The notes beneath the pieces were generated by a model. It was not told where the DNA came from. It searched no databases and saw nothing but the letters and a program-made list of their open reading frames with translations. From a virus, in the IMG/VR virus record IMGVR_UViG_3300031565_000474, positions 1 to 20,708 of that record: a stretch of DNA of 20,708 bases; one strand, given 5' to 3'. The first letter of the stretch is position 1. Each line of letters starts with the position of its first letter. The position numbers and the translations under genes are program-made. Of the stretch, positions 5,739 to 20,525 are shown in pieces.

Positions 5739-8513
5739 TTATTCTACCTCGAAATCTAGTGTAGCACCTAATAGATAAAAAGGCAACGGGTCAATTTGTC
5801 TTAAGAACACTCTACCGTTGCTGTTCCATTCTGATAATATTGTTATACGTTCCACGCCTGTAAATAGACTTGTTGGTTCTCCCCACTTTTCAAACTTTCT
5901 TTGCGCCCATTCAACTAAACGATTAGGGTTAGGACCTATCAGTAACCCCCGTGAATCTTTAAACCGCAGCGCAACACCGGATACTTTTTTATTTTTACCT
6001 TGTATCGTTCTTTGTTGCGTCTCTAAATCTAAAGTTTCTACATCAGATATATACGATAACCCTGTATGTATCCTGCTAAATTTACGGCCAAAGGTAACAG
6101 TACCTTCGGAAGACACCACGAGGTCGCGAATTACGTTACCGTCACCCAACGCCACCACATCTTTACCTGCTAAATGTCGTAAACCGCTTACAGTATCCAC
6201 CGCTTTGCGTACTTGCCCGCCCCCTAAATACGCTGCAAAGTTTGTGCTGTCAACATATTCTCCTTCTAATCGCAAAGTGATCGTGTTTGTGGTAGCATCG
6301 TCAACAACATAGCGGAAATTATTAAGGTGGTTAGGGTTTATCACGTTACCCTTAGCATCTATAGTAGTTTCCCACCTAGCATCGTGAATATCTACTTCGT
6401 CACCATCCGCGAAGGGATGGCCGGTTATCGTAAGCACCGCTGGGTTGGCGTTAGTAATACTTGCTATGGTGTAGGGGTCATCAAGTGATAGCCCGCTATC
6501 TACAAAAAAAGCGTCGCGTATATCTTCAAATGTCCTGTTATCTGAACGCTCGATATAGTATACTGTTCTGCCGCCAACGGAGCGTTTAACGACAAAGAAT
6601 AAAGATTCCAAAGTATCAGCAACATTTGCTCTTGATGCTGCCACGCTGTAATACTCGCCTTCCGTGTCCCATGTCGTCCACCCTATTACTTGCTGCGCCT
6701 CGTTGAGTGTAAGTAGTATTGCGCTACCGTCGTCCCTTACAGAAGCGATTATCGGGTCAACATTCTGTCTCAAATAGGTCCAATCTGTAAGTTTTTTACC
6801 AGATAGTAAATGGGGGGACCATAGCGACAATTCGCCAGATTCGTAACCAGCGGTATTAAAAGCAAATTGCAAGCTCCTTACCGCTGTACCTGTATAGAAT
6901 ATAGCTGTAGAGCCAACAACGTGAGGAGGAAGTTGTGCGCTTCCCCAAGTAGTCTGAGGCCGCTGCTCTATACCAGTTAGCGAAAAACCCCCTTGCGAAG
7001 TTACACGCCATTCGGCACCGGTAGTAAAAACCAACAAATCGTTAAGAGATACGAAATGTCTTATCTCGTTTACCTCTAAAGAAGGTAATGTAGTACTAAA
7101 GGAATCTTCGCTTCTAACAGGAGAAGTCACACTAAAATTCCTAAATGCGCCTAACCTAGAGTAAAATTTTGTATCGGGTTTGTTATTAGAGCCTCCAAGT
7201 ACCCTCCTTTGTTGGTGGAAACCCACCGCCCCTGGGTAGTCGTCTTCGTCCCTAAAAGGGTTAAAAGGGAATGGTGTAGATATTTGTGCATTAGCTTGCA
7301 AATTAGAGTCTTTAAAAGAGGTGTTTTCTGTTTCCCCTATAAAAGCAAAAGCCCCGTTTGTATTACGGTAAACAGCGTAACGGATAGTGTTTGGTACCGC
7401 TGTGAAAGTTATTGTGTTATCAAAGGTGGTGCTAGAATTACTCAGCCGTACGAAAGCCCTCTTAAATGTTCCTCCTGAAACGTAAGCTCCGTAATCGGTA
7501 CCATCTTCTCTTTGTAACGACACCGTGGTTGTTGTTAAACGTATGACCTTAAAACGCCTGCCGTTTAGCTCCGTCATCCCTACAATATTCTCTATAAGGA
7601 TTTCATCACCTGTGGCCAAATCGGCGTCAGCAGATAAGGTTAATACTACCGGGTTAGCCTGTGTAGCGGCGGTTATAGTCTGTGAAGCATCTGTAGTTAG
7701 GGCTGTTGAACTCTCTTCTTTGGTATCTTGTTCGATAGCCGTAACTGTGTATTTAACAACAGTACTTCCATGTGTTCCTGCACTGGCGGCCAATGTAGTC
7801 GGCGCTGAGTGGGTAGGTACAAACGCTGTCGTTGTCAATGTCCAGTTGGCTAGTGCTAATCGCGTTAAGTCCTTAGTAGGATAGCTAGGGTGCGCTAACG
7901 TCATAACATCTGCTGTTTGGCTTATCTTTATATTAAATAGATCGGCCTGTAAATACGGGGATGCTATCTCATAGATCTTGGCTGCGGTACCGCCGGAGGT
8001 ATACGCCCCGTAGGTAGTGCTATCTACGTCTCCACCGGTGTAAACGTCTTGTAGTGAAAAAGTATCGGCATCTAATACCGTTATTTTAAATCTACGCCCG
8101 TTAAGCTGAATCATGCCCCCTATGTTTTCTAACGCTACCTCGTCGTTGGAAGAATACCCATGTGTAGCAATAGTTAAAACTGTTGGGTCAGCTTGCGTGG
8201 CCGCTGTTATATTCTTTGCTGTCTCTGTTATGTGGCCTTCGTTGCGTAAGAAACGGATATACCTATCCCCTAATTCTATCTGGTGCGTGTCTATTGTTTT
8301 AAACTGGAACGCTATAAGCCTAGGTGGTTTAGTAAAGTCTTTTACGGGTGCTATAAAGTGTGTACCACCCCGGTTATACACCCCCCCGTATTGGCTTACG
8401 CTTACATTACGCGCTTTTCGCAACCCTGTGTAATAGTCTTCTTGATCTATCCTCCCGTACAGCTCTGGTGCTATTTCGCCTTTAGAAAAAGAAGGTTGTG
8501 TTATTTCTGGCAT
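5739..8513 (-). CDS. tail tube protein B / nozzle-like protein with three FCCH-like insertions
   Basis: A 924-residue protein. The N-terminus (TQPSFSKGEIAPELYGRID, then a Y..GL..ARN..V...GGV.NR.GT.F pattern) is the signature of podovirus tail nozzle proteins equivalent to T7 gp12 (tail tubular protein B) and their relatives in BPP-1/epsilon15-type phages. Three internal modules resemble the ubiquitin-activating-enzyme E1 FCCH-type beta fold often found in phage tail proteins: residues about 102-183, 280-352 and 683-770. Each has an (A/T)xxxNP-VLT start, a GDE(V/I) turn and, in the first two, NGRRFK followed by YGAYxSGGT. The central part (residues 410-620) contains DDYPGAVGFHQQRRV and W.T-rich blades typical of the family core. 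It follows the tail tube A gene with a 3-base gap and a good GGAAGG ribosome binding site. Confidence 0.88.
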   Translation of the reverse strand: MPEITQPSFSKGEIAPELYGRIDQEDYYTGLRKARNVSVSQYGGVYNRGGTHFIAPVKDFTKPPRLIAFQFKTIDTHQIELGDRYIRFLRNEGHITETAKNITAATQADPTVLTIATHGYSSNDEVALENIGGMIQLNGRRFKITVLDADTFSLQDVYTGGDVDSTTYGAYTSGGTAAKIYEIASPYLQADLFNIKISQTADVMTLAHPSYPTKDLTRLALANWTLTTTAFVPTHSAPTTLAASAGTHGSTVVKYTVTAIEQDTKEESSTALTTDASQTITAATQANPVVLTLSADADLATGDEILIENIVGMTELNGRRFKVIRLTTTTVSLQREDGTDYGAYVSGGTFKRAFVRLSNSSTTFDNTITFTAVPNTIRYAVYRNTNGAFAFIGETENTSFKDSNLQANAQISTPFPFNPFRDEDDYPGAVGFHQQRRVLGGSNNKPDTKFYSRLGAFRNFSVTSPVRSEDSFSTTLPSLEVNEIRHFVSLNDLLVFTTGAEWRVTSQGGFSLTGIEQRPQTTWGSAQLPPHVVGSTAIFYTGTAVRSLQFAFNTAGYESGELSLWSPHLLSGKKLTDWTYLRQNVDPIIASVRDDGSAILLTLNEAQQVIGWTTWDTEGEYYSVAASRANVADTLESLFFVVKRSVGGRTVYYIERSDNRTFEDIRDAFFVDSGLSLDDPYTIASITNANPAVLTITGHPFADGDEVDIHDARWETTIDAKGNVINPNHLNNFRYVVDDATTNTITLRLEGEYVDSTNFAAYLGGGQVRKAVDTVSGLRHLAGKDVVALGDGNVIRDLVVSSEGTVTFGRKFSRIHTGLSYISDVETLDLETQQRTIQGKNKKVSGVALRFKDSRGLLIGPNPNRLVEWAQRKFEKWGEPTSLFTGVERITILSEWNSNGRVFLRQIDPLPFYLLGATLDFEVE

Positions 8514-15530: not shown

Positions 15531-15607
15531 TGGTTGCGGGGGTAGGACTTGCACCTACAATCCCTTGGTGAGTAACCAAGTGAGTTTACTATTTTCTCCA
15601 CCCCGCG
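15531..15607 (-). tRNA. initiator-type tRNA with ACU anticodon
   Basis: A 77-nt cloverleaf with encoded CCA begins at the base after the terminase large subunit stop codon. The acceptor arm has C1xA72 unpaired followed by G2:C71, C3:G70 and four more pairs (CGCGGGG / CCCCGC), and the D stem has A11:U24. These are the marks of bacterial initiator tRNA; the 5' CGCGGGGTGGAG and 3' CCCCCGCAACCA match E. coli tRNA-fMet. The anticodon stem is CTTGG/CCAAG with loop TTACTCA, so the anticodon is ACU (15571-15573), which reads AGU, not AUG. The T arm is GTAGG/CCTAC with loop TGCAAGT. The variable loop is five bases, so it is not a serine-type tRNA. Odd points: U55 is G, G19 is U, position 37 is C, and the 29:41 pair is U:A instead of the initiator's G:C. 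It is either a repurposed initiator or a decaying copy of one. Confidence 0.85.
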
Positions 15608-19190: not shown

Positions 19191-19494
19191 AAACAGGAGT
19201 AAAGACAATGCTTATTAATGAAACACTAGAAGATTTTATGAAGTTTGTATCTTCACAGCGTAAAGACAATAAAGATAAATGGGTCTTCGTTGAAAAACTT
19301 GTAAACGGGCGACATGTAAAGCTTAAATTTTACAATACATATCTACAGATTTTTACGGTTGATAATAAGCGTAAAGAGTCAGGCACAATGAATATGACTG
19401 TTAAGGCTTTTAATACGGAATTATTAGAGGGTTTACAAAACGCTGATTGCTATTAACCAAAAATAACCAACTAAAAACAGGAGTAAAGACAATG
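19191..19494 (+). repeat. duplicated translation leader
   Basis: AAACAGGAGTAAAGACAATG is identical at 19191-19210 and 19475-19494, including the ribosome binding site (AGGAGT) and the start codon, with looser similarity (TTAACAACTA versus TAACCAACTA) for ten bases before. Two neighbouring early genes therefore share a copied initiation region. Confidence 0.8.
19208..19456 (+). CDS. 82-aa hypothetical early protein
   Basis: An 82-residue protein with AGGAGT seven bases before ATG. It alternates charged helices and strands: LEDFMKFVSSQRKDNKDKWV, then VNGRHVKLKFYNTYLQIFTV, then TMNMTVKAFNTELLEGLQNA. The compact beta centre (HVKLKFYNTYLQIF) and a closing amphipathic helix suggest a small globular cytoplasmic protein. 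I recognise no family. The start region is a duplicate of that of the next gene, and the two lie in one operon with a 35-base gap. Confidence 0.75.
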   Translation: MLINETLEDFMKFVSSQRKDNKDKWVFVEKLVNGRHVKLKFYNTYLQIFTVDNKRKESGTMNMTVKAFNTELLEGLQNADCY

Positions 19495-20220
19495 ACACGA
19501 TTTACAGTAATACCTTTCCACGGCTTTTACAACAGCTGGCATGACAATATACTACATAGCGCAATAGAACAGTATTTCGACTTCGAGCAACCAGAGCACT
19601 TTGAAGAAAACTTTAATAACTATAAGGCAATACAAACCGATTACTCAAAATTATATACTGAGTATTTCAACAGTTTATTTAATGAAATAACTGGGCTTAA
19701 TATAGCATTAACTTTTGAAAGCTTGCAATCCCCTCGTGAATATAACTTCACAACGGACAGAATTTTTTGCCATATAACACCAGCGGACGTTCAAAAGCTG
19801 TATGGCTATGTAAAAACGGATGCCTTGCAGCACGTTATACAAGAGATGTTTACGCCTTGCAGCGGTTTTATACCGCATTACAGCAACGATGTAATAAATT
19901 GGCAATGCCGCCAGATATCGGATTTCGACCATAACGAAATACTAACACTAATAACGGCGGCATTATACCAAAATAACGTCGAACTTGACGAATACGCTTT
20001 AATGGAAGATGCAACTAACAACGGCGATATGGTAACCATTATAGACAGGCATGTAAGCGCATGGCTTGAGCTTAACCCTAATAAGGAAGAGAAAGCAGCA
20101 AAGTTCCACAATATACCTTATGCCGATTTTCAAGAGCTTTCAGAGGCGGAAAAGGCATATTTGATAAATAAGTATGAATACCTGCAACCATGCCCTTATA
20201 CGTTGAATATGGATGTTTAG
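19492..20220 (+). CDS. 242-aa conserved-looking phage protein of unknown function
   Basis: The start is ATG at 19492, set by AGGAGT seven bases upstream; an ATG at 19447 has no such site. The protein is acidic and rich in aromatic residues. It begins FTVIPFHGFYNSWHDNILHS AIEQYF-like, and has a central SPREYNFTTDRIF motif (residues about 80-93), then INWQCRQISDFDHNEIL and an acidic C-terminal half ending LQPCPYTLNMDV. I recall the FYxSxHxxxIxxAIEQ start and the SPREYNF-TDRIF motif from uncharacterised early proteins of diverse phages, without an assigned role. Its stop codon lies eight bases before a hammerhead ribozyme, so its mRNA would be released with a defined 3' hairpin. Confidence 0.8.
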   Translation: MTRFTVIPFHGFYNSWHDNILHSAIEQYFDFEQPEHFEENFNNYKAIQTDYSKLYTEYFNSLFNEITGLNIALTFESLQSPREYNFTTDRIFCHITPADVQKLYGYVKTDALQHVIQEMFTPCSGFIPHYSNDVINWQCRQISDFDHNEILTLITAALYQNNVELDEYALMEDATNNGDMVTIIDRHVSAWLELNPNKEEKAAKFHNIPYADFQELSEAEKAYLINKYEYLQPCPYTLNMDV

Positions 20221-20228
20221 GTAATACC

Positions 20229-20293
20229 AAGGCGAAACGGCAACCTGCAACACTGGTTGCCGTCTATAGTTTATAACTATACTGATGAGCTTT
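20229..20293 (+). ncRNA. type II hammerhead self-cleaving ribozyme
   Basis: All parts of a hammerhead are present in order. Stem II 3' strand AAGGC (20229-20233); GAA (20234-20236, G12 A13 A14); stem III, ACGGCAACC (20237-20245, starting with A15.1) with GGTTGCCGT (20255-20263, ending with U16.1), nine perfect pairs and a nine-base loop; C17 at 20264, the cleavage site; stem I, TATAGTT-TAT-AACTATA (20265-20281), seven perfect pairs; the core CTGATGA (20282-20288); and stem II 5' strand GCTTT (20289-20293), five pairs with one U:G. The open helix is II, hence type II. Predicted cut is between 20264 and 20265, 44 bases after the 242-aa gene's stop and 63 bases before the next ATG. Confidence 0.92.
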
Positions 20294-20327
20294 AATCGAT
20301 AAACAAAACAATTAAGGAGTTTTCAAA

Positions 20328-20525
20328 ATGTCAAATATAATACGCTTCCCGATAAATAAAACCGAAGAACGAAAAGAAGCAAGGGCAGAACTTGCGGAAC
20401 TATTAAGAACACTAGAACCAACGGCGATTTTGGCGGTGCAACTAACAGTATTTATTGAGGCAATAGATAAACATTTATATAAAATGCAGAAAATAAATGT
20501 TGACAAAGAAAATCAACAGGATTAA
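20328..20525 (+). CDS. 65-aa hypothetical helical protein
   Basis: A 65-residue protein with AAGGAG eight to nine bases before ATG. After a short strand (SNIIRFPINKT) it is helical: EERKEARAELAELLRTLEPT, then ILAVQLTVFIEAIDKHLYKM, ending with a charged tail. An IIRFP start followed by an amphipathic helix is common in small DNA-associated or regulatory proteins of phages, but nothing here proves such a role. It is the first gene downstream of the hammerhead cut, so its mRNA would begin with a 5'-OH end about 60 bases upstream. Confidence 0.7.
   Translation: MSNIIRFPINKTEERKEARAELAELLRTLEPTAILAVQLTVFIEAIDKHLYKMQKINVDKENQQD

Follow-up and report, generated by a model that had tools for sequence, protein, structure and literature searches.

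Genes and features at the locus

The analysed stretch of DNA (hereafter the window) comprises the 20,708 bases of a virus contig record, in which podovirus-like portal, capsid, tail and terminase genes occupy the minus strand. Among small plus-strand genes, a 242-aa open reading frame with a weak match to phrog_37559 (19492–20220, +) ends with the stop codon TAG at 20218–20220, and a 65-aa open reading frame without a family match (20328–20525, +) begins with ATG at 20328, preceded by a sequence resembling a Shine-Dalgarno element, AAGGAG (20314–20319, +). Direct reading of these codons bears out the 107-nt intergenic gap given in a preliminary description of this DNA; the two genes are co-directional. 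The same description spoke of an early operon, which the region may be, judging only by its location across from the structural genes. The minus strand further has a tRNA-Ser-like gene with the unusual anticodon ACT (15531–15607), which directly adjoins the terminase gene, and, inside the tail protein gene, a match to the sRNA rli43 of Listeria that stays below threshold (5897–6070; 26.9 bits, gathering score 100) and is probably due to chance.

Read base by base, the plus strand at 20229–20293 is a complete type II hammerhead ribozyme, recognised by its sequence, its fold and a custom covariance model, and by Rfam below threshold. It starts with AAGGC (20229–20233), which supplies the 5′ strand of stem II, followed by the core bases G12, A13 and A14 (GAA, 20234–20236) and by the stem III hairpin (20237–20263), which is evident both from direct reading and from the fold. 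The latter has 9 bp and a 9-nt loop, and its strands ACGGCAACC (20237–20245) and GGUUGCCGU (20255–20263) include the A15.1:U16.1 pair. Then come C17 (20264), with the cleavage site predicted from its core position to lie between 20264 and 20265, the 17-nt hairpin I (20265–20281), the core CUGAUGA (20282–20288) and the 3′ strand of stem II, GCUUU (20289–20293). Hairpin I, delimited by direct reading and by comparison with its class, has the stem strands UAUAGUU (20265–20271) and AACUAUA (20275–20281); it can be read as 6 bp with a U-N-N-N-R loop (U20271 to A20275) or as 7 bp with the loop UAU. Stem II comprises 4–5 bp, one of them a G-U pair. A20229, the base just outside a 4-bp stem II, may form a pair with U20293 or else touch loop I.

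All hammerhead core elements are present (C3 U4 G5 A6 N7 G8 A9, G12 A13 A14, A15.1:U16.1 and H17), and three helices with intact core-adjacent pairs surround them. Stem II is open and stems I and III are closed by loops, as in the type II permutation. The earlier claim of a full set of core bases and three stems in the right order is thereby confirmed, with stems of 9, 7 and 4–5 pairs; the sequence CTGATGA occurs once in the window. No open reading frame of at least 50 aa passes through the ribozyme on either strand; a 50-aa minus-strand frame (20078–20230) overlaps its first two bases.

Type II hammerheads are known from bacteria, archaea and prophages, and natural examples next to prophage genes have been described since 2011 (Perreault et al. 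2011, PMC3088659). The ribozyme in the window resembles those described there (RF02276) in its open-stem-II permutation, its core, its GUC cleavage triplet and its placement between phage genes. It also resembles the HF1/HF2 halovirus hammerhead variant described in the same work, which lies a short distance ahead of an early phage gene and near whose cleavage site a transcript 5′ end has been mapped, but which belongs to an archaeal virus and has a variant core (PMC3088659). Judged by its sequence, the locus is a genuine type II hammerhead; since phage and prophage hammerheads are already known, it is a fresh example and not a new kind.

Fold, chance expectation and model scores

Folded alone, the 65-nt segment adopts exactly the hammerhead structure (−20.2 kcal/mol, z −3.75), and none of 200 shuffles did as well. 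When 600 first-order randomisations of the window were searched on both strands with a lax form of the motif, two matches were obtained, the better of them with 11 pairs versus 21 in the real motif. A chance origin of the motif is excluded. When a longer stretch of RNA is folded thermodynamically, the 5′ strand of stem II pairs upstream instead (probability of the closing pair 0.02–0.04); by the same method stem II is weak throughout the class (mean 0.08).

The Rfam search that the preliminary description had proposed as a check bore it out in part. When 131 bases were searched, Hammerhead_II (RF02276) was the top match, yet its 24.5 bits fell short of the gathering score of 37, and a scan of the whole window returned no match at the ribozyme. 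The gathering score is reached by only two of 20 ribozymes of the same architecture (16 loci), so that about 18 of the 20 are missed; the sub-threshold score therefore reflects a limit of the model. We also built a covariance model from 57 other viral-contig ribozymes; neither the window nor the two matches then known to be nearest to it (from contigs L174 and L192) were among them. With this model the ribozyme scored 47.5 bits (E-value 3.1e-12), and the runner-up in the window 7.7 bits. Covariation in the alignment is partly by construction, as only sequences whose stems had 4, 4 and 2 pairs or more were admitted, and only pairs beyond these count: such stem I pairs are formed in all 57 sequences, and one of them shows two-sided changes in 30. 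The roughly 18 misses among 20 suggest that the Rfam threshold hides most ribozymes with a short hairpin I, and phage hammerheads are probably undercounted.

Hairpin I length separates two architectures

Strict type II patterns yielded at least 264 unique motifs in viral contigs, which does away with the earlier notion that phage hammerheads are rare. The first pattern fixed the core bases and a few core-adjacent pairs of stems II and III; it demanded GGC and GAGC at stem II, by which about three stem II pairs are partly preset. The second pattern prescribed a U as the seventh base of hairpin I (U7), and class statistics were consequently taken from the loci of the first scan alone. Searched with the second pattern, named genomes of bacteria and archaea yielded 15 stretches, eight of them with proper stems.

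The length of hairpin I splits the unique motifs of the first scan (at least 181) into a short group of 52 with 16–18 nt and a long group of 123 with 21 nt or more; the remaining six have 19 nt. Among the matches listed, 47 of the 52 short-group motifs have a stem II of 4 bp, 49 have an A immediately 5′ of stem II and 47 have U7. The corresponding figures for the long group, again among the matches listed, are a 3-bp stem II in 87 of 123, the A in 64 and U7 in four, and its loop I finds longer complementary matches in the 3′ tail than in shuffled tails. A loop I that pairs with the 3′ tail over at least 4 bp makes up the pseudoknot of the published type II consensus, and the long group is this published form (PMC3088659). 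The short-hairpin class may also be described there in part.

The ribozyme in the window differs from the published consensus and has every feature of the short group: a 17-nt hairpin I, U20271 at position 7, A20229 and a stem II of 4–5 bp. For its three-base loop I the preliminary description saw no obvious tertiary contacts; the loop is no anomaly and belongs to a recurrent architecture. By analogy, a non-Watson-Crick tertiary contact likely joins U20271 in loop I to A20229, which lies just past stem II. Comparable contacts are known from other hammerheads, which makes this the natural reading. Loop I of the window (UUUAU, extending to GUUUAU if hairpin I opens) is in addition complementary to the tail AUAAA(C); sequence comparison found no such tail partner in three relatives from contigs L174, L192 and L221, despite the same loop.

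We would give roughly even weight to a broader proposal, in which the ribozyme is one member of a large short-hairpin class of type II hammerheads with sharp limits, the U-A contact replaces the pseudoknot in fixing stems I and II together, and the class, mostly invisible at the Rfam threshold, is the standard means by which unrelated phages separate cistrons right after stop codons. The locus adds a clear phage example to the type II hammerheads, of an architecture that recurs and is under-called by public models.

Relatives and genomic surroundings

Hairpin I of the window was found in three viral contigs only (L174, L192 and L221). Their ribozymes are near-identical to that of the window in hairpin I, CUGAUGA and GCUUU (94% over 33 nt) and likewise follow a stop codon and precede a start codon. 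They differ in stem III, which has another sequence and is still paired, and in their neighbouring genes, which are unrelated to those of the window. Between them and the window, the outer pair of stem I shows a two-sided change. Each of the three genomes carries two such ribozymes. L192 also contains a weak third match (667–750, 19.1 bits), in which the 3′ half is intact and the GAA region altered, possibly a decayed or variant ribozyme. L174, which encodes a single-subunit RNA polymerase-like protein (presumably so, by our reading of its sequence), and L221 have neighbouring genes in common. A comparison of L174:3270–3680 with L221:5520–5922 shows different upstream genes and homology that resumes at the first base of the ribozyme, a sequence pattern that suggests gene swaps ending at the ribozyme.

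No relatives of the flanking 242-aa, 82-aa and 65-aa proteins were found in viral contigs and no DNA relatives in the phage collection, and a search of plasmid DNA gave chance matches only. The nearest phages by terminase (39–54% identity) have structural genes in common with the window but not the region on the ribozyme side, and the sequence examined from them contains no ribozyme. Contigs L121–L125, which share the structural module, are non-homologous beside the terminase gene, and no ribozyme was found in them. Its absence from the nearest terminase relatives marks the ribozyme as an accessory part of this phage's genome.

Both this absence and the exchange of upstream genes between L174 and L221, as if cassettes swap, would fit a passenger that arrived by recombination with a gene cassette and is now useless or inactive. 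Decay should nevertheless bring changes in the core, as seen in the weak L192 match, and here all core bases and the three stems are intact. We therefore regard a decayed or passenger ribozyme as improbable, though the best of the competing explanations.

In 73% of the 264 unique motifs listed, an open frame ends with its stop codon no more than 15 nt from the 5′ end of the motif, versus 17% for random positions. The median gap after the stop is 2 nt in the short and 3 nt in the long class, versus 9 nt in the window, and the median gap to the next start codon with a ribosome-binding motif is 29 and 24.5 nt, respectively, versus 35 nt in the window (matches listed); these numbers are approximate, as simple open frames served as gene calls. 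Such a stop-ribozyme-start arrangement fits an intercistronic cutter.

Proposed processing of the intercistronic RNA

We consider it highly probable that the locus encodes a functional type II hammerhead with a short hairpin I, which shares one transcript with the flanking genes (242 aa and 65 aa) and cleaves it in cis at 20264/20265, separating the cistrons. After cleavage, the 9-bp stem III hairpin and a 2′,3′-cyclic phosphate would form the 3′ end of the upstream mRNA; the downstream mRNA would start with a 5′-OH and hairpin I, about 63 nt before the ATG. Our analysis supports these predicted RNA ends, which, like the ribozyme type and the predicted cut, had been put forward in the preliminary description. 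Counting against a functional ribozyme are the G-U pair in stem II, the other pairing partner of its 5′ strand in longer RNA, the sub-threshold Rfam score and the absence from the nearest terminase relatives. A likely purpose, and the probable benefit to the phage, would be that stability and dosage of the two separated cistrons can differ. That long phage RNAs are cut down to shorter mRNAs in this way was already proposed in 2011, and tandem prophage hammerheads cleave in vitro and in E. coli (PMC3088659). The regular stop-ribozyme-start layout makes the long-open role of phage hammerheads testable in a two-gene reporter.

Cleavage might alternatively serve as a switch: upstream RNA would pair with the downstream Shine-Dalgarno sequence, and the cut would release it. 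A predicted fold of 20190–20345 does pair CCUUA near 20194–20198 with the AAGGAG region. By prediction, however, cleavage raises accessibility by 0.007 ± 0.015 over 130 ribozymes and by 0.005 in the window, and shuffled upstream sequence yields the same gain. Release of the ribosome-binding site thus has no predicted effect, and we find such a switch very hard to credit. Least credible of all is a mere pair of structural hairpins that happens to resemble a hammerhead (a terminator or 3′-end stabiliser): stem III is strong, with 9 bp just after a stop codon, but no T-run follows the site, no terminator is called there, and the exact core, the third stem and the 47.5-bit model score would be left unexplained.

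The tails downstream of the ribozymes show one further pattern. Among the matches listed, 19 of 132 short-hairpin ribozymes carry a complement of CUGAUGA (at least 5 nt) within the 15 nt 3′ of stem II, versus 4.5 expected from shuffled tails, the sequences being non-independent; for the long class the count is one of 131 (matches listed). Examples are found in contigs L073 (from 2845), L114 and L047. By their complementarity, tails of this kind could mask the catalytic core.
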